This document shows, one piece after another, positions 8,310 to 46,490 of a stretch of DNA of 64,000 nt (positions are counted from its first letter, which is position 1; each line of letters begins with the position of its first letter). This DNA is from Calothrix anomala FACHB-343 (GTDB taxonomy: Bacteria > Cyanobacteriota > Cyanobacteriia > Cyanobacteriales > Nostocaceae): the NCBI RefSeq assembly GCF_014696435.1, contig NZ_JACJQG010000018.1, positions 58,614-122,613 of the forward strand, in the 5' to 3' direction. The notes below the pieces were generated by a model. The model made no database searches. It was given only the letters and a program-made list of their open reading frames with translations, and had not been told where the DNA came from. The translations under genes and the position numbers were made by a program.

Positions 8310-11300
8310 CTACGCTAGAGGAATTTCATAATAAGGTAACGGATTTTGCCCCGCGCCCATTAGCCAACGCGCATCTGGTTTCCACGCACCGTTGAGTTCT
8401 TCGCGGCGGCGGGTGTTAACTGTTAACTTATCGCCTGCAAACTTCAGCAGATTGTATTGCAGGGGATAACCGGGAACCCACTCGCGGACTGGTGCGCCAA
8501 ATGTTCCGGCGCAGATGCGGTCAAGTTTGCGCCCGTTGGTGCTGAGGTCGTAACGGTATTGGCTGGTTTCGGCTTTGTGGATGTGTCCGTGGAGAAAGAA
8601 GCGGAAGCCAGAGACGGCTAACTGTTCCATAAAGCCTTGGTCTTTGATGCGGTCATCCCATGCGCTGTCTAGGGGATGATGCCAAACAGCAATTTTAATG
8701 CAGTTTCTATATTCTGGATTGCGGCGAATTTCACTGAGGGCGTTGCTGAGTGCATTCATGTTAATGCTGGCACGGGATTTGTAATGATGATCCAATTGCC
8801 AAGCGGAGTTTAGCCCTAGTATTAGCAGGTTTTGGTTGGGGAAATAATCGAGGGTGTATTGCTTGTCATATTCCAGGGGATAGGGTTTACCTTTGATGGT
8901 TTGGTAGAAGTTGCTGAAGTTTTCAAAGCGTCTTTTGTAATCTTCTGGCTTTACAACTGCAATGTAATTACCACTGTCATCAATAACGTGATTTTCATCC
9001 ATTGACCCTTGATATTTTTTACGAAGTACTGGTGTGTAACCTTCTTCTTCTGATATTTTCCAATTCAGGTCATGATTACCGGGAACGATGATAATTTGCT
9101 CAGGTTTGAGGGGGAAATCTTGGCGGAGGTGGGAGAGAAATTCTTCAGCGATTTGGTATTCTTCGGGGGTGGAGTAGTTGGCGATGTCACCGGAGAGGAT
9201 GAGGGTATCAAGGTGAGGAATGTTGAGTTCTTTTCGTAAATCGTTTGCTAGTTGGTTAGACCAAAGTTGGGCTTGATTGGGCGTGGTAAAGTGCAGGTCT
9301 GAGAGGTGGAGAATGTAATTTATTGTGCTGGGTAAGCTTGACGGAGTAATTGGAGATGGTGTTAATTTAGGCTGTAATTGATTGTCGGCAAACACACTAC
9401 GCCAATTATCGGCAGGAATAGTTTTAATATTTTTACTTAATTTATTTAATTGCTCCTTAGCCTCTATTCCTAAATAATCGCTATTCGCCAAGCTGTCAAT
9501 AAAATGTAAGAGGAAGTCGTACCCCTCCATCTCTAGCACATGGACTAAATGAACAGTGAATTGTAGGGAAGTACCTTCTAAATCTACTTTTTTAATCAAT
9601 TCATTAAAATCCAAATATGACAATAATGTTTTTCGGTCTTTGACTGTATGGAAGTAATTTTCTAGTAAATCTATTAATTGTTTCTTAAGCGACATTTTAT
9701 CTGGATAAACTCCTATATTCTGATAATTTTTTATGGTGTAGTTGTAATATTTACAGTTTTCTTGTATTGCTTCAAGTACTTGTAGTCCATAATGCAGCGT
9801 ATCTCCATTATTTGCGGCTACAAACTCTTCATTTTTTAGCAGATTCATAATCTGGAGTATCGCCTGCTCAGATTTGATTTTTACCAGGGCTTCTTTCGCA
9901 CTATAACGCACATTGGAGTCTTCATGTTCGAGCAATTTAATTAATCCCGGAATCACCTGCTCAGATTTGATTTCTCCCAGGGCATCTGCCGCACGACAAC
10001 GCACATCGGAGTCTTCATGTTCGAGCAATTTAATTAATTCCGGTATCGCCTGCTCAGATTTGATTTCTCCCAGGGCATCTGCCGCAATTCTACGCACCCA
10101 GGAGTCTTCATCTTCGAGCAATTTAATTAATCCCGGTATCGCCTGCTCAGATTTGATTTTTACCAGGGCTTCTGCCGCAGTTTTACGCACCCAGGATTGT
10201 TCATCTTCGAGCAATTTAATTAATCCCGTTATCCCCTGCTCAGATTTGATTTTTACCAGGGCATATGCCGCACTAGAACGCACATCTGAGTCTTCATCTT
10301 CGAGCAATTTAATTAATCCCGGTATCGCCTGCTCAGATTTGATTTTTCCCAGGGCTTTTGCCGCACGATAACGCACATCGGAGTCTTCATCTTCGAGCAA
10401 TTTAATTAATCCCGGTATCCCCTGCTCAGATTTGATTTCTTCCAGGGCATCTGCCGCACTATAACGCACCTCGGAGTCTTCATCTTCGAGCAATTGAATT
10501 AATCCCGGAATCGCCTGCTCAGATTTGATTTCTCCCAGGGCAGATGCCGCACGATAACGCACATCGGAGTCTTCATCTTCGAGCAATTTAATTAATCCCG
10601 GAATCGCCTGCTCAGATTTGATTTTTACCAGGGCATATGCCGCATGAGAACGCACATCGGAGTCTTCATGTTCGAGCAATTTAATTAATCCCGGTATCGC
10701 CTGCTCAGATTTGATTTCTCTCAGGGCTTGTGCCGCATGAGAACGCACATCGGAGTCTTCATGTTCGAGCAATTTAATTAATCCCGGTATCGCCTGCTCA
10801 GATTTGATTTCTCTCAGGGCTTGTGCCGCACGATCACGCACATTGGAGTCTTCATGTTCGAGCAATTTCATTAATCCCGTTATCCCCTGCTCAGATTTGA
10901 TTTTTCCCAGGGCTTCTGCCGCAATTATACGCACAGAGTAGTCTTCATCTTCGAGCAATTTAATTAATCCCGTTATCCCCTGCTCAGATTTGATTTCTCC
11001 CAGGGCATATGCCGCACTAGAACGCACATAGGAGTCTTCATCTTCGAGAAATTTAATTAATCCCGTTATCCCCTGCTCAGATTTGATTTCTCCCAGGGCT
11101 TCTGCCGCAAGAGAACGCACAGAGGAGTCTTCATCTTCGAGCAATTTAATTAATCCTGGTATCGCCTGCTCAGATTTGATTTTTTTCAGGTGATATGCCG
11201 CAGTGATACGCACAGAGGAGTCTTCATCTTCGAGCAATTTAATTAATCCTGGTATCGCCTGCTCAGATTTGATTTTTACCAGGGCTTCTGCCGCACGAGA

Positions 11301-13028
11301 ACGCACATCGGAGTCTTCATGTTCGAGCAATTTAATTAATCCCGGTATCGCCTGCTCAGATTTGATTTCTCCCAGGGCTTTTGCCGCAATTCTACGCACA
11401 TAGGAGTCTTCATCTTCGAGCAATTTAATTAATCCCGGTATCGCCTGCTCAGATTTGATTTCTCCCAGGGCTTCTGCCGCAATTATACGCACAGAGTAGT
11501 CTTCATCTTCGAGCAATTTAATTAATCCCGGTATCGCCTGCTCAGATTTTGTTAAACCTAAAAGCCGGATTTTAAATAACAGGGGAATTTCCAACTCAGC
11601 AACTAAATTAACTGTCTGCTGCTGCAAATCTGACTTTACCGCACCTGCTAACCTTGCCCCTAACTGCCAATCTACCTCTAAGGCTAACTTCACCACTCGC
11701 AAAGCCGACACTTCATTATCCAGCAATTCCAGCATCAATCTCAGGGGTTCTGTCCATTTCAAGTAATTCAAATACTCTCGCTTGAGACAATCATCGCTGA
11801 GGTTTGTTAACTGCTTGAGTAAGCATTCGGCGGTGTAATATTCCTGAATTAGTTGGTGGCGAAATTCAATTTGCTCATTGGCACCAAGTTGAATTAAATG
11901 GTATTTGAGTAAATCTCGCAGTGATTTGAATGCGTGGTCACGGGGTGGATCAAATTTCTCACCCTTCAAAAACTCCGTTAAAACTTTCTCAACTTCTGAC
12001 TTGGGTATGGCGACATTTAATTCTGTCAGCTTATCCCCTTTAGTCATGCGGAATGCCAGATGTTGTAATAATAAGAACCACCAATCCCAAGTTTCATCTT
12101 TAACTAAGATATCTTGCTTGAGGTTTTTATAAGAATTTTGGGTAAACTCGCGAAACACTAAACCCAAGTTCGGCGGTATCCCAACTTTGGGATCAAATAA
12201 TGAACAGAGCATCCACAGCAGCAGTGGCGTTTCCCCAAATTCCCGCAACCTGTCGCCTAACTTCTGCAACATTTGCTCACCCTGTTCTGGAAGATAGGCG
12301 CAGACAAATTGCTGCATCTGTTCTGCTGTCAGGGGTTGCATTTCTAGCTTCTTGGTAATGCCCAAATCGCCCCCCACGCCTAAATCCCGCGTGGTGAATA
12401 TCATCGGCGTGGTTTTTTCGTAGTCTTGGCGGAATTTATACAAGTCTTGCCGCGCTGCTTCTGAGGGTAATTCGTTGATACCATCGACTAACAGCAGTAA
12501 TTCGCCAGCAAATAGCAGTTGTTCTATGGTTGTAGTATCTAGCAGTAGGCGATGGCGTTTGCAGAAGTCTCGAATTAAATCCAGTATGGAAGTCTGGTAA
12601 TAGCGTAACTCTACCAACACGGGGATGATCCCCCCAGCCCCCCTTAAAAAGGGGGGTTCTGAAGATTTTACTTCCCCCCTTTCTAAAGGGGGATTGAGGG
12701 GGGATCTCGCCTTCTCTGCTTCCTCCAGCAACAACCGCACTAAGGCTGTGGATTTCCCAGAACCAGGACGCCCTACTAGTAATACGTGTTCTTTAGCATA
12801 CTTCCGCAAGCCTTCCAGCACATCTAATCGCTCGGTTTTCTCCTGTGCTGCGTTGGGTTCTCCCTTAGCTGGCTTGACTGTCTCCACCGTAAAATTCAGC
12901 AGTAAGGGCGACTTTTCCCGTTCAACTCGCTGCTTTCCAATTACATCTGTCAGCGTGTAAGCATCCCACCATTGTACGTATTTTTTATCATTGCAGAGAG
13001 ATTGTAGATAGTCAGACCAGTTGACCAT
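8310..13028 (-). CDS. NACHT NTPase - HEAT repeat - metallophosphoesterase fusion (NLR-like)
   Basis: This 1572-aa protein has three parts. Residues about 80-330 form a NACHT-type STAND NTPase: Walker A GRPGSGKST at 86-94, Walker B with the NACHT signature LLLLVDGINE (Asp about 182) and a TTRD sensor near 212. Then come 18 full HEAT-like repeats of exactly 31 residues plus a partial one (consensus KSEQAIPGLIKLLEDED..VR..AA.AL..I). Residues about 1236-1572 are a calcineurin-like phosphoesterase with all metal ligand motifs: SDLH (1243-1246), SGD (about 1279-1281), GNHD (1317-1320), WHH (about 1449-1451) and GHIH (1481-1484). Bacterial NACHT proteins include anti-phage sensors; here the repeats would be the sensor and the phosphoesterase the effector, which is inference. 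The frame extends to a TTG at 13061, but the ATG at 13028 is preferred; neither has a good ribosome binding site. About 26 residues after the Walker A helix are encoded by an inserted repeat. It is apparently monocistronic. Confidence 0.9.
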   Translation of the reverse strand: MVNWSDYLQSLCNDKKYVQWWDAYTLTDVIGKQRVEREKSPLLLNFTVETVKPAKGEPNAAQEKTERLDVLEGLRKYAKEHVLLVGRPGSGKSTALVRLLLEEAEKARSPLNPPLERGEVKSSEPPFLRGAGGIIPVLVELRYYQTSILDLIRDFCKRHRLLLDTTTIEQLLFAGELLLLVDGINELPSEAARQDLYKFRQDYEKTTPMIFTTRDLGVGGDLGITKKLEMQPLTAEQMQQFVCAYLPEQGEQMLQKLGDRLREFGETPLLLWMLCSLFDPKVGIPPNLGLVFREFTQNSYKNLKQDILVKDETWDWWFLLLQHLAFRMTKGDKLTELNVAIPKSEVEKVLTEFLKGEKFDPPRDHAFKSLRDLLKYHLIQLGANEQIEFRHQLIQEYYTAECLLKQLTNLSDDCLKREYLNYLKWTEPLRLMLELLDNEVSALRVVKLALEVDWQLGARLAGAVKSDLQQQTVNLVAELEIPLLFKIRLLGLTKSEQAIPGLIKLLEDEDYSVRIIAAEALGEIKSEQAIPGLIKLLEDEDSYVRRIAAKALGEIKSEQAIPGLIKLLEHEDSDVRSRAAEALVKIKSEQAIPGLIKLLEDEDSSVRITAAYHLKKIKSEQAIPGLIKLLEDEDSSVRSLAAEALGEIKSEQGITGLIKFLEDEDSYVRSSAAYALGEIKSEQGITGLIKLLEDEDYSVRIIAAEALGKIKSEQGITGLMKLLEHEDSNVRDRAAQALREIKSEQAIPGLIKLLEHEDSDVRSHAAQALREIKSEQAIPGLIKLLEHEDSDVRSHAAYALVKIKSEQAIPGLIKLLEDEDSDVRYRAASALGEIKSEQAIPGLIQLLEDEDSEVRYSAADALEEIKSEQGIPGLIKLLEDEDSDVRYRAAKALGKIKSEQAIPGLIKLLEDEDSDVRSSAAYALVKIKSEQGITGLIKLLEDEQSWVRKTAAEALVKIKSEQAIPGLIKLLEDEDSWVRRIAADALGEIKSEQAIPELIKLLEHEDSDVRCRAADALGEIKSEQVIPGLIKLLEHEDSNVRYSAKEALVKIKSEQAILQIMNLLKNEEFVAANNGDTLHYGLQVLEAIQENCKYYNYTIKNYQNIGVYPDKMSLKKQLIDLLENYFHTVKDRKTLLSYLDFNELIKKVDLEGTSLQFTVHLVHVLEMEGYDFLLHFIDSLANSDYLGIEAKEQLNKLSKNIKTIPADNWRSVFADNQLQPKLTPSPITPSSLPSTINYILHLSDLHFTTPNQAQLWSNQLANDLRKELNIPHLDTLILSGDIANYSTPEEYQIAEEFLSHLRQDFPLKPEQIIIVPGNHDLNWKISEEEGYTPVLRKKYQGSMDENHVIDDSGNYIAVVKPEDYKRRFENFSNFYQTIKGKPYPLEYDKQYTLDYFPNQNLLILGLNSAWQLDHHYKSRASINMNALSNALSEIRRNPEYRNCIKIAVWHHPLDSAWDDRIKDQGFMEQLAVSGFRFFLHGHIHKAETSQYRYDLSTNGRKLDRICAGTFGAPVREWVPGYPLQYNLLKFAGDKLTVNTRRREELNGAWKPDARWLMGAGQNPLPYYEIPLA
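9855..11548 (-). repeat. 93-bp tandem repeat array coding the HEAT repeats
   Basis: Eighteen units of 93 bp, each starting with the codons for KSEQ. The DNA is nearly identical from unit to unit except at a few codons, which indicates recent expansion or homogenisation by recombination. The varying positions are D/H at residue 15 of the unit, the residue before VR, the two after VR, and the codons around AA.AL.. Confidence 0.95.
12627..12706. repeat. GATCCCCC palindromic repeat translated inside the NACHT domain
   Basis: An 80-bp palindromic repeat (GATCCCCCC ... GGGGGGATC, both arms containing C6-G6 hairpins) lies inside the NACHT coding frame. Read on the minus strand it is open and yields a Pro/Gly-rich segment (RSPLNPPLERGE...PPFLRGAGG) between the Walker A helix and the following beta strand (IPVLVELRYY). 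Related copies in non-coding DNA are at 1-101 and 13931-14006. Confidence 0.85.
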
Positions 13029-13458
13029 AGGGCGTGAGAAAATGGGGTGCTTGGGTAGCAAGTATGCGGTGGTGATTGCTGAGTGCTAAGGAAAACGCAG
13101 CTTATTATAGTTTAGCTTCCCAGATTGTGTTGTTGAGGTTGCTTAATGGTGTTTTGCTGGACTTAGCGTAAAATTTCGTGAAGGGGATAATGAATCAATT
13201 CAAAATTCAAAATTCAAAATTCAAAATTCAAAATAAAATACAAGTTATTGTGGTTATCGGTTGAGTCCATACAATTTTAAGGGCACGGCAGTGCCGATGC
13301 CCCTACAGGCGACGATATAATTTTGGATTGTATTCAACTGAGAACGGCTATATTCGGTGAGTAGGGGGACGACGAAGAAAGATTTTTGGTGAGGCAGATA
13401 TGCGATTGATCGCAGTCTTGCCCCTAAAATGACGATATTTTTGGAATTTAATATCTCT

Positions 13459-13710
13459 AATGAGGTTATTTTGTTCGTGAGCGAGGTTATTTTGCTCGTG
13501 AATGAGGCTTTTTTGCTCGTGAATGAGGTTATTTTGCTCGTGAATGAGGCTTTTTTGCTCGTGAGCGAGGTTATTTTGCTCGTGAACGAGGTTATTTTGC
13601 TCGTGAATGAGGTTATTTTGCTTGTGAATGAGGTTATTTTGCTCGTGAATGAGGTTATTTTGCTCGTGAATGAGGCTTTTTGCTCGGTGAATGAGTTTTT
13701 GAATCTCGTG
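13459..13710. repeat. 21-bp minisatellite, about 12 units
   Basis: Twelve head-to-tail units of 21 bp beginning AATGAGG and ending CTCGTG, the last two degenerate. The unit is exactly seven codons, so a plus-strand frame (13429-13785) would read as heptads of the type VNEVILL. That frame has no ribosome binding site and no conserved flanks, so it is treated as a DNA repeat and not as a gene. Confidence 0.85.
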
Positions 13711-13930
13711 AGGGAGTATTATAGTGCTTCTCGTTTAGATGCAATACTCAATAGAGCACAGCAGTGCTCATTGGTGTCAACTTAAGGCGAAACCCATAGC
13801 CCGCCTCAGAATGAATTCTGAGTCTAATAACAAAAGTAAGCTAAAGCTAACTAAAAATTATCACTTATCCCCTGTTTACTTTAGTCTACGGTGTACACAC
13901 AAGTCTTATAACCTAGCCCGATAACGTTTT

Positions 13931-14006
13931 GATCCCCCCTAACCCCCCTTAAAAAAGGGGGGAAGAGAATCAAAGTCCCCCTTTTTAAGGGGGATTTAGG
14001 GGGATC
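13931..14006. repeat. GATCCCCC/GGGGATC palindromic repeat
   Basis: A 76-bp palindrome beginning GATCCCCCCTAACCCCCC and ending TTAGGGGGATC. It belongs to the same family as the copies at 1-101 and 12627-12706. Confidence 0.8.
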
Positions 14007-14323
14007 TAGCTACATTTTGCACTTAGCACAGAGATCTGTGTACACCGTAGGTTTACTTTAGTAGGGGCAGGTTCACAGATATGCTCGAATAATTCACGAC
14101 TATCTCGCTTAACCCGCCCCTACTTTGCCTTTGTCCCTTGGAATTCATTCCAAGGCGAGTAGGTAAGCCTTGCAATAAGCTATCTGTGGCTTAAGTTGAC
14201 ACAGGTGAGCAGTGCTGTGTCCCTACCGATGTGTGACATTCTTTTTTCAAATTGGTATAACTAGCGCAGGATTGTACTTTATATTAATCTCAATTATTAT
14301 CTGCGTGACTTTTACCTTTCGCT

Positions 14324-14827
14324 ATGTCTAACCCATTACCTGCGGAACCTCAACCAAAGCCACTCAGCGAGTTTGAATTAGGCTTGCTCAAGGAAGAATA
14401 CTTTTTTCTGCAAAATACTATTGAGGACTACAATAAGCAGATTTGGGTAATCAAAGCGCTGGGAATTACGGGGACTGGGGCTGTTTTAGGATTGATGATA
14501 CAGCAAAAAACCAATGCTACGGCGATCGCACTTATTGGTTGTGCTATCCCTGCATTTTTTTGGATACTCGAAAGTCAGTGGAAACACTTTCAGCGCGGTT
14601 TTTATCCCCGTGTCGCGGAAATCGAAACAATTCTGACTCAGCAGTGTGGTTTTCATAGCCCAAGTATTTATGGTAACTGGACTCGCACTCTCAAGCGCAT
14701 TCCCACACCCAAACGTAAAGGCTATGTTTGGGATGGGTTATTAAATAGCACTGTTTATATCAGCTATGTCCTAGAAATTGGTTTTCTCTTGCTCATGGCA
14801 GCGATCGCACCTACAATTTGGAAATAG
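14324..14827 (+). CDS. Small membrane protein of unknown function
   Basis: A 167-aa protein. After a Pro-rich N-terminus it has a charged helix (LLKEEYFFLQNTIEDYNKQI), two closely spaced hydrophobic segments (ALGITGTGAVLGLMI and ATAIALIGCAIPAFFWIL), a basic central region with an amphipathic stretch, and a C-terminal hydrophobic helix (VLEIGFLLLMAAIAPTIW). The two-helix hairpin followed by a cytosolic helix recalls the SLATT and RipA-like small membrane protein groups found near bacterial conflict genes, but the match is only by general shape. It lies 1.3 kb from the NACHT gene, on the opposite strand and separated by repeats, so a functional link is not shown. It starts at an ATG with no strong ribosome binding site. 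Confidence 0.7.
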   Translation: MSNPLPAEPQPKPLSEFELGLLKEEYFFLQNTIEDYNKQIWVIKALGITGTGAVLGLMIQQKTNATAIALIGCAIPAFFWILESQWKHFQRGFYPRVAEIETILTQQCGFHSPSIYGNWTRTLKRIPTPKRKGYVWDGLLNSTVYISYVLEIGFLLLMAAIAPTIWK

Positions 14828-36296: not shown

Positions 36297-36395
36297 TACG
36301 GACACTTTTATACGGATATATCTTGTCAACTTCTATTTTGCGTGCCAATATTGTTTTTAACAACCAGTTACGGACACTATTTAAGTTTATGTCCG
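36297..36395. promoter_or_regulatory. Divergent cas promoter region with CGGACA repeats
   Basis: Between the WYL gene and cas3', the motif ACGGACAC occurs at 36298-36305 and 36370-36377, with a variant CGGATA at 36313-36318. The copy CGGACA at 36371-36376 forms a perfect inverted repeat with TGTCCG at 36390-36395, and the latter overlaps the cas3' ATG. The first two copies form direct repeats (TTTTATACGGA) right upstream of the WYL start. The spacing suits a dimeric regulator, presumably the WYL protein. Confidence 0.5.
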
Positions 36396-38566
36396 AAAGT
36401 TACAAAATTAATCTCAAATCTGTTTATTCCCAAACAGTCCCCACACCCAAAGGTGTACAATTACCCCAAGATTGGTCATTATCTTGGCATCAAGCAGCCA
36501 CTTTAGAAGCCTTACGCGATCCAAATATTGATGTAATATTCAACAACGCCATGACAGGCGATGGTAAAAGTTTAGCTGCATATTTAGAAGTGCTTCAGGG
36601 TGAATCTTCGGCTATTGGACTTTACCCAACTAATGAACTAGCACGCGATCAAGAAATACAAATTCAAGGCTATATTGCAGCATTTAAACCTGCAAATCAG
36701 CCCCGTGTAGTGCGACTCAGTGGTGCTGATTTAGAAATATATGCAGAAAATGAAGGCTTAAAGAAAAGTGCTGCGATCGCAACTCTCACTAGCCAACGAG
36801 AAGCATTATTAACTAACCCTGATATTTTCCATTATTTACATCGCGGTGCTTATATTATTCGTGGCGATAGTCCAGATAAATTATGGGGCAGAATCGATAA
36901 AGATTTTGATTTATTTCTTGTAGATGAATTTCATGTATTTGCTGCTCCCCAAATTGCCAGTATTATTAATACAATGTTATTAATTCGCTGCACCAATCGC
37001 CGCAAAAAATTTTTATTCCTTTCAGCTACACCAGATAAAAATTTAATCACTAAACTAGAAATAGCAGGTTTTCGTTGTCGAGAAATTAATCCCCACGAAC
37101 AAAATAAATATCAATTTCCTGAGACTGAAGAACAAGAACAGCAATTAAAATCTCAAGGATGGCGGCAAGTAGCAAGACCAATCGCTTTAAATTTTATCCC
37201 CTTAGAACCAGCTTTTAAAGCATCAGAGACTTGGTTAAAAGAAAATATTGATTTGATTGTCAATCAATTTCAACAATATCCAGGTAGTAAAGGCGCAATT
37301 ATTCTCAATTCTATTGCGTCCGTCAAGCGTCTAACTCCATTTTTTCAAGAAATTTTACAGCCTTATGGTTTAAAAGTAGGCGAAAATACCGGACTTTCTG
37401 GGAAAAGAATCAAAGAGCAAAGCCTTGCTGCTGATTTAGTTATCGGCACGAGTACAATTGATGTAGGGGTTGATTTTAAAATTAACTTTCTAATTTTTGA
37501 ATCATCCGATGCAGGTAACTTTACCCAACGTTTAGGCAGGTTGGGCAGACATGATGGCTATGACAAAGAAGGTAAGCAAATTCAGTTTGCAAATTTCACA
37601 GCTTATGCACTTGTACCCAACTTTTTAGTCGAGCGTTTATTTCAGGTAGAATCTCCACCCTTAACAGTTAATTGTATTTGCGATCGCCCGTTTCTACAAA
37701 ACACTATTAAAGAGCAATATCGCCAAATTAATGATTTTCAGGGATATTATTGCCGTTGGGGTGCTGTACAGTCTTTTTGGTTATGTTGTCAATTAAGCGA
37801 TCGCACTATTCAACAACAGTATGCCCAAAGCCGAGATAAATTTCAAACAGTCAGCGAGCAACTATTTAATACCAGTTTGAAATCTATGGCTGGACGAATT
37901 AAAGGATGGGTTAAAGAATGGCAAGAAATCTCCGGAAAATCAGGAAATCCTATTGCTGAAGATGCTGCTAGTTTTCGCGGTTCTAGTCCATTGCAATGTG
38001 GTTTGTACGACTTAACCGAAGCCAACGAAGTAGATAGGTTTAAAACCTACGACTTACCCGGAATTTTGAGCAACTTAGAAATTGAAACGTGGACAGAGGC
38101 GGCATTTACACGGACACTGAAAGAAACTGCACAACGCACCGGACAACCAATTGCCAAAGGTAGATTTGCTCACTGTCTAGCATTTATCAAGTTGCGTTCT
38201 TACCGTGAGGAAAGGTTGAACTGGAAATTTACTTACCCTGGCGACTTGCAACCAATAGCTGATGCGTGGAAAGTCCAGGTTTTAACAGGCATAGAAGTTT
38301 GGCAACCAGAAAACCAATGGATTAGGGAGATAAACAAACGTTTAAAAACACAGGGTTTGGTATGTTATGTGCTTCGCCGTCCCGTTGCAGAAGTGCGGAT
38401 GCGGCTACGGCTACCGATGCACTTTCAAATTTACCCGATTAGCGACCAGTACAGCGTTCATGATGCTAACACACCGTATGCGATCGCGTTTGGTCACTCT
38501 GCACTACTACTAGATACGCTGGCGTACACCTTTAAAAGTAAAGGAGATGAGATATGGATTGCTTGA
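36389..38566 (+). CDS. cas3: Type I-D CRISPR-associated helicase Cas3'
   Basis: A 725-aa SF2 helicase lacking an HD nuclease domain, as is normal in type I-D where the HD domain sits in Cas10d. Helicase motifs are visible: Walker A MTGDGKSLAA near residue 58, DEFH box (LVDEFHVF) near 178, motif III FLSATP near 210, and motif VI RLGRLGRHDGY near 381. It unwinds the target DNA after Cascade binding. The longest frame starts at 36323 but the ATG at 36389 (MSESYKINLKSVYS) fits the family and lies in the CGGACA/TGTCCG repeat. Its TGA at 38564-38566 touches a relic CRISPR repeat. The next cas gene is more than 2.2 kb away, separated by two toxin-antitoxin pairs. Confidence 0.92.
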   Translation: MSESYKINLKSVYSQTVPTPKGVQLPQDWSLSWHQAATLEALRDPNIDVIFNNAMTGDGKSLAAYLEVLQGESSAIGLYPTNELARDQEIQIQGYIAAFKPANQPRVVRLSGADLEIYAENEGLKKSAAIATLTSQREALLTNPDIFHYLHRGAYIIRGDSPDKLWGRIDKDFDLFLVDEFHVFAAPQIASIINTMLLIRCTNRRKKFLFLSATPDKNLITKLEIAGFRCREINPHEQNKYQFPETEEQEQQLKSQGWRQVARPIALNFIPLEPAFKASETWLKENIDLIVNQFQQYPGSKGAIILNSIASVKRLTPFFQEILQPYGLKVGENTGLSGKRIKEQSLAADLVIGTSTIDVGVDFKINFLIFESSDAGNFTQRLGRLGRHDGYDKEGKQIQFANFTAYALVPNFLVERLFQVESPPLTVNCICDRPFLQNTIKEQYRQINDFQGYYCRWGAVQSFWLCCQLSDRTIQQQYAQSRDKFQTVSEQLFNTSLKSMAGRIKGWVKEWQEISGKSGNPIAEDAASFRGSSPLQCGLYDLTEANEVDRFKTYDLPGILSNLEIETWTEAAFTRTLKETAQRTGQPIAKGRFAHCLAFIKLRSYREERLNWKFTYPGDLQPIADAWKVQVLTGIEVWQPENQWIREINKRLKTQGLVCYVLRRPVAEVRMRLRLPMHFQIYPISDQYSVHDANTPYAIAFGHSALLLDTLAYTFKSKGDEIWIA

Positions 38567-38567
38567 G

Positions 38568-38683
38568 GTTTCAATCCCTCATAGGGATTTATGGGATTCA
38601 AAGTCTAAAGGCAGAAAAAGGAACAGTAATACGTTCACAGAGTATTGTTTCAATCCCTCATAGGGAGTTAGAGTATGTTATTG
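38568..38683 (-). CRISPR. Relic CRISPR repeat pair in reverse orientation
   Basis: Two copies of GTTTCAATCCCTCATAGGGA start at 38568 and 38647, 79 bp apart. The block resembles the reverse complement of the repeat end in the main array (GTTTCAATCCCTAATAGGGA), and the first copy continues with an AT-rich tail. One repeat plus spacer in the main array is 71-73 bp, so the spacing is near that of a CRISPR unit. The remaining parts of the repeats are degenerate. It is immediately downstream of the cas3' stop. Confidence 0.6.
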
Positions 38684-38800
38684 CCTTAGACTTTGACTTA
38701 CAGTATAAGTATAGTACAAACACTTTAGTCAAGATAAAGAAGTTTGTCTCGTTAATACGCTGTGAACTGAAAATACTGTACCTTTATCTGAAACAGGCAA

Positions 38801-39133
38801 ATGCAAAACCAAAATGCCGACCCCCACCTGTTGAAATGCGTACTTAATGCTGACATCAATCAGCTCCAACAGATTAACCAAATGCTGATTCATCGGCTTG
38901 TTGAGGAAGTCTACAAGCATGAGTGTCGCATCAGGACTTTAGAACAGCAAAATCAAGAAATATTGCTAAAACTTAACAAATTAGAAAATCTCACAAACGC
39001 AAATACTAGTCAGCTTCAAGAGAACCAAGAATTAATTAGTTTTATAGAAGCAGAAATTCCCTATTTGAGACACTTAGTTTACAAAAACGACGACTTAGAG
39101 AATCGTTTGGCTTTTCTCGAACCATCAGACTAA
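38801..39133 (+). CDS. Predicted coiled-coil protein, unknown function
   Basis: A 110-aa protein, almost wholly helical, with heptad-like Leu/Ile spacing (INQLQQINQMLIHRLVEEVY, RTLEQQNQEILLKLNKLENL). It lies between the relic CRISPR repeats and the DUF433/DUF5615 pair in the cas transcript direction. The ATG at 38801 has no clear ribosome binding site. It could be a cargo protein of the inserted block or an unrecognised antitoxin-like protein; nothing in the sequence decides. Confidence 0.5.
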   Translation: MQNQNADPHLLKCVLNADINQLQQINQMLIHRLVEEVYKHECRIRTLEQQNQEILLKLNKLENLTNANTSQLQENQELISFIEAEIPYLRHLVYKNDDLENRLAFLEPSD

Positions 39134-39190
39134 GGTGCTATTTGCAGTGTACACAGCATCAACAATCTAATTTCAAAGCACAGACTAGTT

Positions 39191-39433
39191 ATGAACGAAC
39201 AAAAACTACTAGAAAGAATCACAGTCAACCCCAAAATATTTGGCGGTAAACCTATTATTCGAGGTCGCCGTTTAGGAGTTGAACATATTTTAGGGATGCT
39301 TGCAGCAGGAGATACTATCGAAACCTTACTAGAAGCTTATCCCTGGTTAGAACGAGAAGATGTACAAGCTTGCTTAGTTTATGCAAGGAGGCTAGTTGCT
39401 CATGAACGAGTTGAACCATTATTGATAGAGTAA
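39191..39433 (+). CDS. DUF433 antitoxin
   Basis: An 80-aa DUF433 protein. The family motif is complete: ITVNPKIFGGKPIIRGRRLG followed by VEHILGMLAAGDTIETLLEA and LEREDVQACLVYA. DUF433 proteins are helix-turn-helix antitoxins that usually pair with a downstream DUF5615 PIN-like toxin, as here, with 5 nt between stop and start. It lies inside the type I-D cas operon, codirectional with it. Confidence 0.9.
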   Translation: MNEQKLLERITVNPKIFGGKPIIRGRRLGVEHILGMLAAGDTIETLLEAYPWLEREDVQACLVYARRLVAHERVEPLLIE

Positions 39434-39438
39434 CAAAT

Positions 39439-39798
39439 GTGAAAATACTGCTAGATACTTGTGTGTGGTTCGGGGTGCGTACCAATTTACTTGCTGCTGG
39501 CTATGACGTAGTTTGGAGTGGAGATTGGTCAGAAGATCCTGGCGATGAGGAGATTTTAGCAACTGCTTACCGTGAAGGTCGAATTTTAGTAACGCTGGAT
39601 AAAGACTTTGGAGAGTTGGCAATTGTAAGGGGAAATCCTCACTGTGGCATTTTACGTTTAGTTAATCTTACTACCACAGAACAATCAGTTGTTTGTCTGC
39701 GAGTACTTCAGCTTTACGGTAATGAATTAGCATCAGGTGCAATTGTCACTGCGGAATTAGGCAGAGTGAGAATTAGACCACCAGAGAATGATGCCTAA
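39439..39798 (+). CDS. DUF5615 PIN-like toxin
   Basis: A 119-aa DUF5615 protein, a PIN-like/Mut7-C relative and the usual toxin partner of DUF433. The acidic active-site residues can be seen at KILLDTCVW, EDPGDEEILATAYREG and LVTLDKDFGELA. The predicted activity is RNA cleavage. The start is the GTG at 39439, 5 nt after the DUF433 stop, so the two are translationally linked. All key acidic residues are present, so it looks functional. Confidence 0.88.
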   Translation: MKILLDTCVWFGVRTNLLAAGYDVVWSGDWSEDPGDEEILATAYREGRILVTLDKDFGELAIVRGNPHCGILRLVNLTTTEQSVVCLRVLQLYGNELASGAIVTAELGRVRIRPPENDA

Positions 39799-39936
39799 AA
39801 CTCAACAAATTAATTTCTCGCACTAATGGTGCGAGAAATTAATAAGCTGAATTTCAATGTAATTTTTACTATGTAAATAATTACTCTTCAAACCATTTAT
39901 GTAATTCAACTATTTACAATAATGGAGAATTAGCAA

Positions 39937-40389
39937 ATGCAGAACCCCATTCCAACAATTGCAGAACTGCAAGAATTAGCCTCACAACTTCCTGAAAAAA
40001 TTCCTTACTTAAAAATGTTAATCCTATTTGGTTCTAGAGCCACTGGTAATGCAAACGCAAAAAGTGACTGGGATTTTGCAGTTTTGTGTGATGAAGAACA
40101 GCGTGAAGCTTACATAAAAAATAATATTTCAGGTTTGTTTGAATTACCTATGCTGATTGGCGAAGTATTAAAAATCAATGCTGACCACATTGATATTGTA
40201 GAACTTAACCAATGCTCTTGGCTAATAGCTCATTTCGTGGCTCGTGATGGAATTCTCTTGTTTGAAAAATATCCTGAGCAATTTGAATCTTTTCGATTAA
40301 ATTCCTTAAAAACTGAATCAGAGTTAAAGAAATTTCGGCAAGAGCAACATCAAATTATTGAAAGAGAACTAAATAAGTGGGGAGCATGA
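39937..40389 (+). CDS. mntA: MntA-type nucleotidyltransferase antitoxin (type VII TA)
   Basis: A 150-aa minimal nucleotidyltransferase. The GSX10DXD motif is exact: GS at the start of GSRATGNANAKSDWDFAV with DWD ten residues later. In the HepT/MntA system MntA transfers AMP to a Tyr of the HEPN toxin and so neutralises it. It starts at an ATG with a strong GGAG 9 nt upstream and overlaps the next gene (ATGA). It is the first gene of the second toxin-antitoxin pair inside the cas operon. Confidence 0.92.
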   Translation: MQNPIPTIAELQELASQLPEKIPYLKMLILFGSRATGNANAKSDWDFAVLCDEEQREAYIKNNISGLFELPMLIGEVLKINADHIDIVELNQCSWLIAHFVARDGILLFEKYPEQFESFRLNSLKTESELKKFRQEQHQIIERELNKWGA

Positions 40390-40829
40390 GTAATATAGAT
40401 CCCGAAATAGTTTTAGTGAGACTTAGGTTCATTACCAAATATTACAACACGTTAGAAGAGTTTCGAGCTACTACTCTCGATGACTTCTTAGCTGATTTCC
40501 GTCAGCAACTTGTTGTAGAAAGACTGCTACAATTAATGGCTCAAGCTGCGATAGATATTAACGATCATATCTTGTCAAAGCTAAATCCAGGAAATTCAAA
40601 TACTAACTTTGAAGCTTTTATTGAGCTTGGTAAATATGGTGTCATTACTCCCGAACTAGCAAGACAATTGGCACCATCAGCAGGATTAAGAAATCGTCTA
40701 GTTCATGAATATGACGATATAGATCCGCAGCAAGTTTTTAGGGCAATTAGTTTTGCTTTACAGCAATATCCACTGTATGTCAGACAAGTCAACTCATATT
40801 TAATTTCCTTGAGTGAAGAGAATGGCTAA
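40386..40829 (+). CDS. hepT: HepT-type HEPN toxin (type VII TA), overlapping cas10d
   Basis: A 147-aa HEPN RNase of the DUF86/HepT family. The catalytic RX4HXY motif is RNRLVHEY, including the Tyr that MntA modifies. The ATG at 40386 overlaps the mntA stop (ATGA). Its own stop codon lies at 40827-40829, while the cas10d ATG is at 40822, so toxin and cas10d frames overlap by 8 nt. The two are almost certainly on one transcript and translationally coupled. The motif is intact, so an active ribonuclease is expected if the antitoxin is lost. Confidence 0.92.
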   Translation: MSNIDPEIVLVRLRFITKYYNTLEEFRATTLDDFLADFRQQLVVERLLQLMAQAAIDINDHILSKLNPGNSNTNFEAFIELGKYGVITPELARQLAPSAGLRNRLVHEYDDIDPQQVFRAISFALQQYPLYVRQVNSYLISLSEENG

Positions 40830-43800
40830 AAAAAGTAAAGCTGCAAAAGCTTCAGATAAATATCAGCAATTATCACTTTTAGATATAGAAAACACTGTAA
40901 ATTCTGAATCATCAGATGAAGATTGGTTATCGGGTGATTTTGGTTTTGATAGTGATAGCGATCGCACTATCGCAACTAAACAACAATTACTCACACTCAA
41001 GCTACTGCAAGAAGCGATTACAGCGCAAAATCCTGATGATATAGTCATGGCAGATTTTGCCAAATATGTTTTACCAAATCTGCTAAAAATAGCAATTGGT
41101 GTCACAGCTAAAGGTGGTAAATTCTTTGATGAAATAGACCAACAGCGAGAAGCAGCAGGTAAAACTAAAGTTAGGCGAGATAATGCAGCCGATCAATCAC
41201 TCAATACACATTTACTCAACGGTTTATTTCCTGCAAATTTAATTGAGAAACGCTTAGAAAACCTGGATACAACTATTCGGCGCGTAGTCAGAGAAAGAGA
41301 ACGGCGTTTAGTCATTGCTGGGTTCATTTTACATGACTTTGAAAAATTCCCCGATGTACCAGAAAATTGCCGCAAATTAGCGTTAGTAGAACATCGTCAA
41401 ATTATTGATGAAAAAGTCAAACAATTAGGACTCGATCAGTTTATCAATCCCGATAATCCAGAAGCTTATACAGAATATCTCGACGATTTATTATGCTTGG
41501 CTTACAATGCTCAACGCCGTTGGGATACTAACTGGAATTTTTCGGAATTTGGCTTAAATCCTGTTCTTAAAGACCGTACTCTTCGCAGTCTAGCTGATTT
41601 AACTTGTTTAGCTGATTCTCTCGCTTCTATTGTTAAACATCCCCAAGATGCAGAAAATCCGAGATTGCAAGAAATTATTCATAATCTCAGCGATGGACAA
41701 CTGAAATTTACCTATCACCGTATTGCAGAAAATCGGGGTGTTTTAACTAATGTTGTCAATAATGCCGTAATTCAAGCTTATACTAGTCTCAATACCAATG
41801 AGCAGATATATTATGAACCTTTACTATATCTGCCAACAGGTGTAATTTATCTCGCTGCGCGTAACGCTCCTTCTCTATCTACAAAAGACTTACCAGACCT
41901 TGTAGTTAATAATATTAAGTTCCTATGTGCAGGACAATTAAAACGCAGACAAACAGGATTTGGTCGTGATGGTAAAGGCATGAAATATGCCGAATATTAT
42001 AACTTATTTTTTGACTCTCCCGGCTTAATGGAAGTAGCTTTAGATGCAACATTACGCATTTTAAGTTCTACTAAACCATCTGTTGCTAAAAGTCGCAGTG
42101 ATAACTTAGTTAAGTTTCAACAACAAGGGGTTTTACCTGCTGAGTTTGATTTTAATTTTACCGATGATATCCGCATTGACCAAATAGCTGAATTTGGCGA
42201 TTTAGTTAGTCGTAAAATTTGGGATGAAGCCGTTAACCGGATTGAAGCAATTCGCAAGAAAGATAAAAAATTACCCGCTATACCTGCTTTTGATTTAACA
42301 CATAAAGTTACTGAATTCTGGAATTTAACAGAATCTATCCCTGAAATTCGCCACATTCAGCGCATCAATGAAAGCCTGAAAGAAAACAAGTTAAAAGGTA
42401 ATACTGGCGGCGTACCTTATGAATGGTATTATCTCGCTGCTAAGTATCTGGAAGCACATCCAGGCGTGGAAGATGTCAGGGAAATTTGCCAGCAAGTTAT
42501 TAAATACTTGACAGGTTTAATTTCTCCCATCCTCTCTCAATATCAATTACCTGATGGTTGGGATGATTTAAGACAATGGGTATCAAGAGTGGTGATGTTG
42601 CCAAATACAAATCAACAACAATCACCTGAAACGCAAACTAAAAACTTTCTCAATGAGTTAGGTAACTATAATGCTGCTAAAAAACCTGGAAGGGGAAGAC
42701 AATTAATTTGTTCAATTTCCCATTCTGCTTACACAGTAACAGAGCAGATGGAATCAGCAGTTTTATTTACACCGCAAGTTTATACAAATAAACAAATGTT
42801 AGGTGGTTCTAATGCCAAGCGCAATATTTCTAGTATTGCAGGTGTGGAAATGATGTTGCGACAAATTTTGATGAATCAAACTCAAGCAGTAGGTAAACGT
42901 TTTGAAGATGGTAAATATCGCTATCTTTACTTTTATCCAACTTATTACTTTACCCCAGAAACTAATAAGTTTTTACAGAAAGCTTATAGTGGCGTAGCTC
43001 AAACTCGCTTTGATACTAGCATCCGTAATCATTTTATCTCCAAAGATTTTCAAGCGCACTTAGATAAAGAAAATTATCAAAGTGTAGATAGTTTTTTAAT
43101 AGATGAAAATCTCGATAATGAAAAAGACCGGACATTTAAGCTTGCTTATCCAGAAGACCAGCCTTTAACATTTTATTTCATGGCGCTACCTCCAGGACGA
43201 GACAGCACAGATACGGAATCTTGGGTTATGCCTACTTGGTTAGCCTTTGCTTTCCCAATGATTTTGGATGTCAAAACTGTAGTTTCTGAATCGCCAATTC
43301 CACCATTTAATGATGGTGCAGAGTTTGAAGAAAGCGTTTTTCTTGACAGTGCGCCTCATGCTTTTCGCGCTTTGGTAAAAAGAGATAGGTTCCGTTTAGA
43401 TTATATTCTGGAAGGTTGGCAAGAAAACGGTATTCAATACCCTGCTCCCCTGAATGTGTTGACTGCTGCTTATGCGATTCATTTAGATGTGAATGCGCGA
43501 CAAGGTAAATCTGGTTATGACGCCAACTGGGGAAGATTTAGCGAATTAGCGAAGGATTTAGAAACTAGTCCTTTGTATGCATTTTATTATCTAAATCGTT
43601 GGGCACGTAACCAGGGAGTTGACTCAGCCAGAATTGAAAAGATTCGGCTTTACACCTATCATTTTTATCCTTGTTTTGACCCTTGTGCAAAATTTGACTA
43701 CACCAAAGAGGAATTAATTGTGGGAGAAGAATCAAGTCTCAATCATCCTAAGAAATTAACAGAACTTTATCGCCGCTTTTATAGAGCTAATAAGCGATAT

Positions 43801-44184
43801 AATCCCAAAGCTAATGCTGTATTAAAACCGATTGATATTGCATCTGAAACTATACTTAAAGCTGAGTTAAGTGTATTTCGCGGTGAAACATTAGTTACAG
43901 CTGTAGCCGCCGAAGTTTTTAAACTTATGGATCGCGTTCATTCTTCCACTGCTGAGGGACGCTGGGTAATGAGTAAACGGGAGGAAGAACGACAAGCAAT
44001 TTTAGATTTTGCACAGTATTTTGTAGTTGATGTATTTGAAAAATCTTTTGCAGGCGATCGCGCGCGTTTAGCAGGCCGTCAACTCAACTTAATTCGCGAT
44101 ACTTGCGAATTTCTTTATCGCTTAGAAGACGACAAAGAAAATTTAGAGAAAAATCAAAAGCCACCGGAATCAGATAAGGAATAA
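40822..44184 (+). CDS. cas10d: Type I-D large subunit Cas10d (Csc3) with HD domain
   Basis: An 1120-aa Cas10d/Csc3 protein, the large subunit of the type I-D effector. The HD nuclease region lies near residue 170 (AGFILHDFEKFPDVPEN). No GGDD cyclase motif is seen, as in other Cas10d. The protein provides PAM recognition and the nuclease for DNA cleavage together with Cas3'. The ATG at 40822 (MAKKSKAAKASDKYQQLSLL) is inside the end of hepT; a GTG at 40813 is a less likely start. The 3' end probably also encodes the small subunit Cas11d from an internal start at 43720. csc2 follows after 68 bp. Confidence 0.95.
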   Translation: MAKKSKAAKASDKYQQLSLLDIENTVNSESSDEDWLSGDFGFDSDSDRTIATKQQLLTLKLLQEAITAQNPDDIVMADFAKYVLPNLLKIAIGVTAKGGKFFDEIDQQREAAGKTKVRRDNAADQSLNTHLLNGLFPANLIEKRLENLDTTIRRVVRERERRLVIAGFILHDFEKFPDVPENCRKLALVEHRQIIDEKVKQLGLDQFINPDNPEAYTEYLDDLLCLAYNAQRRWDTNWNFSEFGLNPVLKDRTLRSLADLTCLADSLASIVKHPQDAENPRLQEIIHNLSDGQLKFTYHRIAENRGVLTNVVNNAVIQAYTSLNTNEQIYYEPLLYLPTGVIYLAARNAPSLSTKDLPDLVVNNIKFLCAGQLKRRQTGFGRDGKGMKYAEYYNLFFDSPGLMEVALDATLRILSSTKPSVAKSRSDNLVKFQQQGVLPAEFDFNFTDDIRIDQIAEFGDLVSRKIWDEAVNRIEAIRKKDKKLPAIPAFDLTHKVTEFWNLTESIPEIRHIQRINESLKENKLKGNTGGVPYEWYYLAAKYLEAHPGVEDVREICQQVIKYLTGLISPILSQYQLPDGWDDLRQWVSRVVMLPNTNQQQSPETQTKNFLNELGNYNAAKKPGRGRQLICSISHSAYTVTEQMESAVLFTPQVYTNKQMLGGSNAKRNISSIAGVEMMLRQILMNQTQAVGKRFEDGKYRYLYFYPTYYFTPETNKFLQKAYSGVAQTRFDTSIRNHFISKDFQAHLDKENYQSVDSFLIDENLDNEKDRTFKLAYPEDQPLTFYFMALPPGRDSTDTESWVMPTWLAFAFPMILDVKTVVSESPIPPFNDGAEFEESVFLDSAPHAFRALVKRDRFRLDYILEGWQENGIQYPAPLNVLTAAYAIHLDVNARQGKSGYDANWGRFSELAKDLETSPLYAFYYLNRWARNQGVDSARIEKIRLYTYHFYPCFDPCAKFDYTKEELIVGEESSLNHPKKLTELYRRFYRANKRYNPKANAVLKPIDIASETILKAELSVFRGETLVTAVAAEVFKLMDRVHSSTAEGRWVMSKREEERQAILDFAQYFVVDVFEKSFAGDRARLAGRQLNLIRDTCEFLYRLEDDKENLEKNQKPPESDKE
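43720..44184 (+). CDS. cas11d: Predicted internal small subunit Cas11d (within cas10d)
   Basis: In type I-D systems the small subunit Cas11d is made from an internal start near the 3' end of cas10d. Here an in-frame GTG at 43720 (codon 967 of cas10d) is preceded by AGAGG with an 8-nt gap, a good ribosome binding site. The product would be 154 aa, mostly helical (KKLTELYRRFYRANKRYNPK, VFKLMDRVHSSTAEGRWVM), of the size expected for Cas11d. It shares frame and stop with cas10d. The start is a prediction from sequence. Confidence 0.6.
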   Translation: MGEESSLNHPKKLTELYRRFYRANKRYNPKANAVLKPIDIASETILKAELSVFRGETLVTAVAAEVFKLMDRVHSSTAEGRWVMSKREEERQAILDFAQYFVVDVFEKSFAGDRARLAGRQLNLIRDTCEFLYRLEDDKENLEKNQKPPESDKE

Positions 44185-44252
44185 AAACCAGCTATTCTCA
44201 GCTAATAAATCTGCCAATCGCATCGAATAATCATATTTTTTGGAGAAATATC

Positions 44253-45263
44253 ATGGCTTTGCTCAAAACTGTTGAACCTAAATTATTTCAAACCGCAATT
44301 CCCTACAAACCGATGGGTAAATATGTCCACTTTTTAACTATTCGCATCACCGAATCCTACCCATTATTTCAAACAGATGGCGAACTCAATAAAGCCAGAG
44401 TTAGGGCTGGAGTTAAAGATAAAACTACAATTAGCCGCCTGTCAATGTTTAAACGCAAACAATCAACACCAGAACGTTTAGTTGGACGAGAATTGTTGCG
44501 TAACTATGGCTTAATGACTGCTGAAGAATGCGAATACAATGTTAACTTTGCAATGGATAATCCTGATTGCATTATTTATGGTTTTGCAATTGGCGATTCT
44601 GGCTCAGAGAAATCAAAAGTTGTGGTAGATACAGCATTTTCGATTACAGCTTTTGATGAATCACACGAAACTTTTACTCTGAATGCTCCTTATGAAAATG
44701 GGACGATGGCTTCTAAAGGTGAAGATGGTTCTAAACCTGGGGAAGTTACTAGCAGAATTAACCAGCAAGACCACATCAGACCACAAACTTTCTTTCCTAG
44801 TATTGTCACATTAAAAGACCCTACTGAAGCTAGTTTTCTTTACGTATTTAATAACATCCTCCGAACTCGCCATTATGGAGCGCAAACAACCCGCACAGGT
44901 CGTGTAAGAAATGAGTTAATCGGTGTTATTTTTGCTGATGGAGAAATTACTAGTAATTTACGCTGGACTCAAGCAATATACGACAAAATGCAGGCAAATA
45001 ACAGTATCAATTCTCCTGAACCTTTAGATGAAGATGATGTCATTAATGCTGCTAAAAGTGCGATTGAGGAATTAATGGCTGATGAATTTATTGTTCATAC
45101 TGACTTTATTGGTGAGACTTTCGTACCCTTGCTAAGTGAAGTTAAAGCGCTCACAAATAGCGAAGCAGGAATAAAATCAATTTTGCAAAAAGCTGATGCA
45201 GAAGCTAAAGAATACGCCAACAAACACATCAGCAAAAAGAAATCGGCTGCTAAAGCAGGGTAA
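44253..45263 (+). CDS. csc2: Type I-D backbone subunit Csc2 (Cas7d)
   Basis: A 336-aa Csc2/Cas7 protein that forms the crRNA-binding backbone of the type I-D effector. Recognisable family segments are KPMGKYVHFLTIRITESYPL, ERLVGRELLRNYGLM, and the Thr/Arg-rich ILRTRHYGAQTTRTGRVRNE. The C-terminus is Lys-rich. TGGAG lies about 9 nt before the ATG. It is between cas10d and csc1 in the usual order, with 5 nt to csc1. Confidence 0.94.
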   Translation: MALLKTVEPKLFQTAIPYKPMGKYVHFLTIRITESYPLFQTDGELNKARVRAGVKDKTTISRLSMFKRKQSTPERLVGRELLRNYGLMTAEECEYNVNFAMDNPDCIIYGFAIGDSGSEKSKVVVDTAFSITAFDESHETFTLNAPYENGTMASKGEDGSKPGEVTSRINQQDHIRPQTFFPSIVTLKDPTEASFLYVFNNILRTRHYGAQTTRTGRVRNELIGVIFADGEITSNLRWTQAIYDKMQANNSINSPEPLDEDDVINAAKSAIEELMADEFIVHTDFIGETFVPLLSEVKALTNSEAGIKSILQKADAEAKEYANKHISKKKSAAKAG

Positions 45264-45268
45264 TCGCT

Positions 45269-45976
45269 ATGCCAATTATTTATTGCTGTCAATTAGAATT
45301 ACACGACAGCCTTTATTATGCTACTCGTGAAATCGGCAGATTATACGAAACAGAAGCGGTAATTCATAATTACGCACTCTGCTATGCATTAGGCTTAGTT
45401 GATAGCGAAGTTTACTCTACCAATGTAGCTGAAGAACATTCCTATCGTTATTTTTGCTCTGAACAAGTACCGAAATATGAGGAACATTTAACGCCGCTAA
45501 ATCAGCAGGGAATTTATGTCACACCTGCGCGTGCAGTTAATCATACTGCGATTCTCAATACATGGAAATATGCGAATAATAACTATCATGTAGAAATGGA
45601 GAAAACGCAAAAAAATATTCCTAGTTTTGGTAGAGCTAAAGAAATTGCACCAGAAAGCCAATTTGAGTTTTTTGTAATTTCTCAAAAGCCAATGAAGCTA
45701 CCAAAATGGATTCGCTTGGGTAAATGGATGAGTAAGGCTGAGGTGATAGTGGAACAATTACCTCAACCTCAAACTACAGAAGGTGTCTTTACCTACAAAT
45801 ATCCTTTAAATCCTTTAGATGTAATGTTCACTAATCAAGTAATTAGCTACGATGTGGTGAATATGCCTCCAGTTAGTCTAATTCAAAATGTGCAAATGCG
45901 AGGGCAATACTACCAATTTAAAGAAATGAAAGAACTCAAGATTCCCATTTGCATGGAATATCGTTTTCGGAGTTAA
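45269..45976 (+). CDS. csc1: Type I-D subunit Csc1 (Cas5d)
   Basis: A 235-aa Csc1/Cas5 protein that caps the 5' handle of the crRNA. The N-terminal segment CQLELHDSLYYATREIGRLY and the following HNYALCYALGLV are typical of Csc1. It starts 5 nt after csc2 and its stop overlaps by 4 nt the stop of a minus-strand gene. The coding is intact and of normal length. Confidence 0.92.
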   Translation: MPIIYCCQLELHDSLYYATREIGRLYETEAVIHNYALCYALGLVDSEVYSTNVAEEHSYRYFCSEQVPKYEEHLTPLNQQGIYVTPARAVNHTAILNTWKYANNNYHVEMEKTQKNIPSFGRAKEIAPESQFEFFVISQKPMKLPKWIRLGKWMSKAEVIVEQLPQPQTTEGVFTYKYPLNPLDVMFTNQVISYDVVNMPPVSLIQNVQMRGQYYQFKEMKELKIPICMEYRFRS

Positions 45977-46383: not shown

Positions 46384-46490
46384 CTGTCTTTCTCCTGGTG
46401 TAATCACACTTACCAAAAGTAGAGTAACATTTGCATAATTTAAGTTTTACCTGCATGTAGCAGATCTCAGTCTAAAAAAAAGCTGAAAAA

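Follow-up and report, generated by a model that had tools for sequence, protein, structure and literature searches.

A hypervariable NACHT-HEAT-metallophosphoesterase protein from the cyanobacterium Calothrix anomala, a candidate NLR-type anti-phage sensor with a linked membrane protein gene

The 64,000-nucleotide stretch of the Calothrix anomala FACHB-343 genome analyzed here (hereafter, the window; genome of 9.24 Mb in 144 contigs) encodes, on its minus strand at 8310..13028, a protein that joins a NACHT NTPase, 18 near-identical HEAT units, an EAD8 adaptor domain, and a C-terminal calcineurin-like metallophosphoesterase (MPE). Judged from its sequence, this protein is most likely an anti-phage system of the NLR (nucleotide-binding, leucine-rich repeat receptor) type. 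We also consider it fairly probable that it is an intracellular sensor with a built-in effector that works with a small membrane protein encoded head-to-head with it. The original prediction, a reading of the same DNA, had proposed a NACHT NTPase, 18 HEAT repeats, and a metallophosphoesterase in one chain, and all three were recovered by Pfam, motif inspection, and Tandem Repeats Finder (TRF). Its NLR-like plan is well supported, by a STAND NTPase, a diversifying repeat sensor, a conserved enzyme, and interchangeable partners; it had overlooked the EAD8 domain, the hypervariable positions, and the companion gene.

The open reading frame (ORF) spans 8310-13061 on the minus strand and encodes 1583 amino acids from a TTG codon; an in-frame ATG at 13028, which matches the starts of relatives in an alignment, is the likely start and gives the 1572-residue protein called from the ORF, Pfam, motifs, and alignment. 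Residues are numbered on the 1583-residue version throughout. The NACHT domain (12285..12785, minus strand) was assigned from PF05729, which matches residues 93-259 with 25.6 bits, slightly under the cut-off of 26.7, and from motifs and alignment. Within it lie a Walker A motif (GRPGSGKS at residue 97; about 12747-12773, minus strand) and a Walker B motif (LLLVDGINE at residue 189); a Walker A and a Walker B motif are also seen in the nine family proteins that cover the region. Seven relatives (loci L076, L078, L081, L082, L083, L085, and L091) reach or exceed the PF05729 cut-off, with 26.7-49.2 bits, and L054/L090 lies below it at 22.1 bits. For the ~85 residues N-terminal of Walker A, no match was found among the best 25 of 29 Pfam families.

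At the other end of the chain, EAD8 (PF19961; residues 1125-1211, 9429..9689, minus strand; 34.0 bits versus a cut-off of 27) falls precisely between the HEAT cap and the linker leading to the MPE domain. The latter, the putative effector (8313..9314, minus strand), is defined by PF00149 (Metallophos, residues 1250-1496, 42 bits), motifs, and fold. Its five motifs, SDLH, GD, GNHD, HHP, and GHIH, are kept in 17 of 17 aligned sequences, i.e., the window and 16 of the 22 MPE loci described below (L074, L090, and L092-L095, which are partial, broken, or interrupted, were set aside), in agreement with the earlier claim of an intact phosphoesterase with all motifs conserved. The metal-binding motifs and predicted fold fit the Class III (Rv0805/GpdQ-like) metallophosphoesterases, a family label that, like the roles of the motifs, we take to apply here. 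In L090, a coiled-coil-like stretch of roughly 95 residues (about residues 1160-1260) is inserted inside the MPE domain.

The candidate sensor is the HEAT array. Eighteen tandem units of 93 bp (9873..11546, minus strand; residues 506-1063), each exactly 31 residues long, follow one another head-to-tail; TRF reports a period of 93, 18.2 copies, and a score of 2484. A degenerate 19th unit and a HEAT cap ending in an IQENxxYYN motif close the array (9741..9872, minus strand). The units are near-identical in DNA save for a few codons on one helix: 13 of the 31 codons are invariant across all 18 units, and entropy peaks at unit positions 18, 21, 22, and 25 (2.3-2.5 bits each) and 28 (1.8 bits). AlphaRep libraries are described as randomized at positions 18, 19, 22, 23, 26, and 30 (PMC3754942). 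The equivalent window positions are 17, 18, 21, 22, 25, and 29, with identical spacing and a one-residue offset deduced from gapless alignments. The choice of these six positions was made with the entropies already known; it includes position 17, which is nearly invariant, and omits the variable position 28.

Mean entropy is 1.84 at the six positions versus 0.25 elsewhere, a contrast reached by none of 20,000 position permutations. The proportion of nonsynonymous differences (pN) at the six positions is 0.443, about tenfold the proportion of synonymous differences (pS) across the whole unit, 0.043; both this comparison and the permutation used the 17 of 18 units recovered by a pattern matcher. 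A minimal-change count over all 18 units, the set also used for the codon table, gave 43 nonsynonymous to 4 synonymous changes versus 199:65 for random changes (binomial p = 0.005), for units that exchange sequence and are therefore not statistically independent. Of ten other family proteins examined, the eight with enough units all have higher entropy at the six positions, and in seven of them the observed value is reached in under 1% of permutations; for the five units of L090 the contrast is not significant (1824/20,000). The pN at the six positions is at least twofold the overall pS in L076 (0.256/0.050), L081 (0.371/0.126), L091 (0.254/0.112), and the five-unit L090 (0.137/0.052), just 1.3-1.6-fold in L075, L082, and L085, and under it in L083 (0.359/0.395). 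A scan of 41 NACHT relatives returned 12 with at least five in-register units, among them L146, which is the same gene as L083. All 12 have higher entropy at the six positions, and pN exceeds overall pS in eight, falling below it in L128, L141, L145, and L146. The window array has the strongest pN/pS contrast of all arrays measured. A 186-bp query found nine matches inside the array and two elsewhere (short, 75-77%, on contig C141), 11 in all, and no template copy in the genome, which argues against a diversity-generating retroelement (DGR), in an assembly whose 144 contigs could hide a gap.

A scan of named genomes for the MPE domain found 22 loci, all cyanobacterial. At ten of them (L075, truncated at its 5' end, L076, L078, L081-L085, L090, and L091) the MPE lies in one frame with NACHT and HEAT, and EAD8 is present in two of these ten (L078 and L090). 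The other loci comprise three coiled-coil-MPE genes (L080, L086, and L089; coiled coil judged by eye), one P-loop NTPase-TPR-MPE gene (L087), one with an N-terminus of unrecognized type (L088), three split genes (L079, L094, and L095), and four fragments or contig ends (L074, L077, L092, and L093). Each of the coiled-coil-MPE genes is preceded by a gene with almost the same start sequence, which in L080, the one tested, is DUF2887 in Pfam. In the sampled class, 8 of 388 genomes hold an MPE relative (E <= 1e-10) and 107 of 388 a relative of the NACHT part (E <= 1e-30); EAD8 occurs in 12 of 291. MPE relatives are also found on P-loop NTPase-TPR, WD40-Roc, CHAT, and SIR2_2 proteins. At L177 (5577-13704), MPE-CHAT and MPE-SIR2_2 genes stand side by side and are followed by an nSTAND1-WD40 gene, and on a conjugative Nostoc plasmid (L198, 3391-7722) a WD40-Roc-MPE protein adjoins a NACHT gene.

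The output half is exchanged as well. From 40 retrieved regions with NACHT relatives, ten protein ends were run through Pfam, and seven carry another domain in place of the MPE: a C-terminal TIR (three), a C-terminal PNP (one), an N-terminal caspase (one), or an N-terminal trypsin (two). An eighth has a weak trypsin piece below the cut-off, and for two (L126 and L157) Pfam found nothing past HEAT. The varied ends indicate that the NACHT-HEAT scaffold takes exchangeable outputs. At eight loci (L127, L128, L130, L140, L142, L154, L155, and L158) the NACHT-HEAT C-termini are short Asn/Gly-rich tails that may resemble bacterial amyloid signaling motifs.

The companion gene (14324..14827, plus strand) encodes a 167-residue membrane protein with three hydrophobic stretches and diverges from the NACHT-HEAT-MPE gene across 1262 bp of intergenic DNA (13062..14323, unstranded). 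At 8 of the 22 MPE loci (L076, L081, L083, L085, L089, L091, L094, and L095) and at G129, a relative of the companion is encoded upstream of the gene that bears the MPE and on the other strand; in L089 the distance is 3.5 kb, with other ORFs intervening, and in L094 the companion consists of two overlapping pieces. It was found in none of 38 NACHT-HEAT regions without an MPE, a result that covers flanks of at most about 4 kb next to the NACHT match and shorter ones where a contig ends. A companion-only query, independent of the MPE query, was run against 388 cyanobacterial genomes and returned nine loci in eight genomes. Seven of the nine adjoin an MPE gene, and four of these MPEs are only distantly related to that of the window. 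Three loci hold NACHT-HEAT-MPE (window, G107, and G129), and two hold MPE-NACHT-LRR with an N-terminal MPE (L194, whose frame as called lacks the first MPE motif, and L197, whose companion is in two pieces). L179 holds WD40-Roc-MPE, with the companion in pieces on the same strand, 21 bp downstream. The seventh, L193, has an MPE of 485 amino acids; the ORF that follows it (L193, 3096-5471) starts with a NACHT Walker B-like stretch, as judged by eye, and the locus could represent a single MPE-NACHT-LRR gene split over two frames. L196 has a NACHT-HEAT gene that occupies two frames and is truncated where its contig ends, and at L195 no MPE was found within the 12 kb examined. For nine members of the companion family compared with Pfam, four families were listed up to E 10, none of them SLATT, models of which are presumably in the library searched. 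Weak matches were obtained to 8xMP (two of nine members) and to PADLOC PDC-M50A (eight of nine, best 7.7e-5). In the GTPase-centered systems outlined by Kaur et al. (PMC7159879), nucleotide-related effectors, most often calcineurin, are on several occasions accompanied by a two-transmembrane SLATT gene.

The architecture had first been regarded as one that could not be named from described systems, a view now out of date: DS-8, as described in PMC13092281 (Science 2026), is a phage-validated single-protein metallophosphatase plus NACHT system in which mutations in either domain abolish defense, and catalytic mutants of the MPE domain lose defense in both DS-8 and DS-9. The window protein shares with DS-8 (DefensePredictor; NF053861) an MPE and a NACHT in one chain and a homologous MPE domain, and differs from it in that the MPE follows a hypervariable HEAT sensor and EAD8. 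The best NCBIfam matches of the window MPE domain are two anti-phage models, DS9_1 (90 bits) and DS8 (84 bits), both far under the full-length cut-offs; within the DS8 profile, 994 positions long, it covers the N-terminal positions 1-235, and the whole window protein scores 83.9 bits against NF053861, from the MPE part only, versus a cut-off of 790. Like bNACHT and Avs proteins, it appears to unite a STAND NTPase, a repeat sensor, and an effector, but its effector is C-terminal, whereas their order is given as N-terminal effector, central NACHT, and C-terminal sensor (PMC12169576). By its sequence, the protein is close to DS-8 in content but outside both the DS-8 order and profile and the usual bNACHT order. 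A C-terminal effector has precedents in the GT4 domains carried by NACHT proteins and further STAND proteins (PMC8195603) and in the C-terminal TIR and PNP domains noted above; the same 2021 paper lists N-terminal calcineurin domains on STAND-FGS proteins, a number of which belong to the NACHT clade.

Three further families of comparison bear on the adaptor and the repeats. The EAD8 conflict systems outlined by Kaur et al. (2020, 2021) likewise combine an EAD8 adaptor with a STAND NTPase and list calcineurin among their effectors, but EAD8 is N-terminal in the proteins from other loci run through Pfam and internal, ahead of the effector, in the window. Fungal HET-D/HET-E NLRs carry closely similar tandem repeats whose diversity is concentrated at the sites presumed to contact ligand, attributed to concerted evolution and diversifying selection (PMC4986451); the window protein differs in that it is bacterial, its repeats are of the HEAT type, and its effector is unrelated. 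DGR-diversified sensors on NACHT conflict proteins of multicellular bacteria, including a DGR target with cAMP-phosphodiesterase and NACHT domains, are also described (PMC10907252), and differ from the window protein, for which no template copy was found in the genome and whose variation is spread over 18 tandem units. In the part of the open-access literature covered, we found no C-terminal MPE on NACHT-HEAT, no hypervariable bacterial HEAT units, and no MPE-linked membrane gene, and we do not claim their absence from print.

The most economical reading is probably one in which ligand binding on HEAT, NACHT switching, and MPE clustering are coupled to joint action with the membrane protein. 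The hypervariable face of the HEAT solenoid would bind a foreign, probably phage, protein, freeing the NACHT module for nucleotide exchange and oligomerization. This would bring together and activate the C-terminal MPE domains, which may cleave a nucleotide or another phosphodiester. The companion would be either an executioner responding to MPE action, perhaps gated by a signal that the MPE produces or eliminates, or a membrane anchor of the MPE and its complex. The infected cell would then be shut down. EAD8 may provide an optional extra contact for homotypic assembly. What the sequences establish is the anatomy of the domains, the conservation of catalytic residues, the diversification of the repeats, the swapping of receptors and effectors, and the association with the membrane gene; the rest of this scheme is inference.

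Several observations count against this picture. The predicted NACHT structure, from a shallow alignment of 11 sequences, has a pLDDT of 44. At the six positions themselves pS is 0.129, so that the local pN/pS is 3.4, not 10, and the pN/pS signal among relatives is mixed. The DS-8 MPE is N-terminal, whereas that of the window protein is C-terminal, and DS-8 is described as a single-protein system, whereas the window has a linked membrane gene (PMC13092281). The companion was not found at L078, L084, L086, L090, and L092, where the 5' flank is 3 kb or longer in every case (the remaining nine of the 14 companion-less MPE loci have just 0-2.8 kb before a contig end), nor at the MPE-CHAT/MPE-SIR2_2 locus L177, and it is broken at L094, L179, and L197; it is thus not required by every MPE protein. 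The other immediate neighbors of the NACHT gene look housekeeping in Pfam (an exchanger, a glycosyl hydrolase of family 57, a LysR regulator, and a dihydroxy-acid dehydratase), so there is no tight defense island.

A role in signaling rather than immunity, with NACHT-HEAT sensing a cellular partner and the MPE, as a class III cyclic-nucleotide phosphodiesterase, adjusting cAMP or a different messenger in filament differentiation or stress, seems unlikely given the patchy spread of the MPE (8 of 388 genomes) and the split copies at L079, L094, and L095; nor would a housekeeping regulator be expected to diversify its repeats and swap effectors. Allorecognition or kin discrimination between filaments, with the repeats recognizing non-self host alleles instead of phage, as for fungal HET-D/HET-E, is quite unlikely, and we know of no hyphal-fusion-like filament fusion in these bacteria. 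That idea draws on an evolutionary pattern that is the same as reported for fungal NLR repeats (PMC4986451), and is opposed by the action of the MPE relatives DS-8 and DS-9 on phage, as described in PMC13092281.

Because EAD8 is described as a presumed homotypic recruiter of a trypsin-like effector (PMC10907252), the window protein might instead be a node that recruits the EAD8-trypsin or EAD8-iSTAND proteins encoded on contig C73. The same genome encodes four more EAD8 proteins, all on C73, where EAD8-NACHT-NCH2, EAD8-trypsin, EAD8-iSTAND, another EAD8 protein, and an AAA ATPase are clustered (C73:66000-85500, L053); the window EAD8 is the only one on its own contig, C55, and no second EAD8 protein was found at the window locus. 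Such recruitment is nevertheless very unlikely, as the window EAD8 shares 16-25% identity with the four C73 domains versus 58% with those of L078/L090, and only two of the ten single-frame relatives have EAD8 at all. That the gene is a decaying or accidental assembly under no functional selection is highly improbable: although split relatives exist (L079, L094, and L095) and repeat elements are inserted in the gene, the frame is open over its full length, the catalytic motifs are kept in every aligned sequence, and NACHT-HEAT-MPE persists in one frame at 10 of 22 loci. Conservation of both active sites already disfavors decay.

One of these repeat elements, a copy of a short interspersed repeat, is inserted in-frame in the NACHT domain, where it separates Walker A from the remainder (12630..12707, minus strand). 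A second copy is intergenic (13931-14006), and genome-wide the repeat has 62 matches, its own copy counted, many of which are a single site matched on both strands. Relatives carry different inserts at the same NACHT site, and L082/L084 carry another further on. A 21-bp tandem array of 11.3 copies (13459-13695) also lies between the divergent genes. About 23 kb from the NACHT-HEAT-MPE gene are CRISPR-Cas genes (36323-47306) encoding a Cas3-like helicase, Csc2, and Cas6, presumably type I-D given Csc2.

More broadly, and tentatively, at somewhat less than even odds, the window gene and its companion may exemplify a modular two-gene cyanobacterial immune system, in which an output cassette of MPE and dedicated membrane protein is mounted on at least three chassis (NACHT-HEAT, NACHT-LRR, and WD40-Roc GTPase) and NACHT-HEAT recognition evolves by turnover of near-identical 31-residue units and diversifying selection on the binding face. 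If so, NACHT-HEAT receptors would be a natural counterpart of alphaRep libraries and fungal HET receptors. A phage-validated but mechanistically unsolved effector class, the DS-8/DS-9 metallophosphatases, would be linked to a second gene, and the companion membrane protein could explain how an effector of this type stops infection. The window protein would also be a bacterial receptor whose candidate recognition residues are readable from sequence, making unit swaps and specificity tests feasible.
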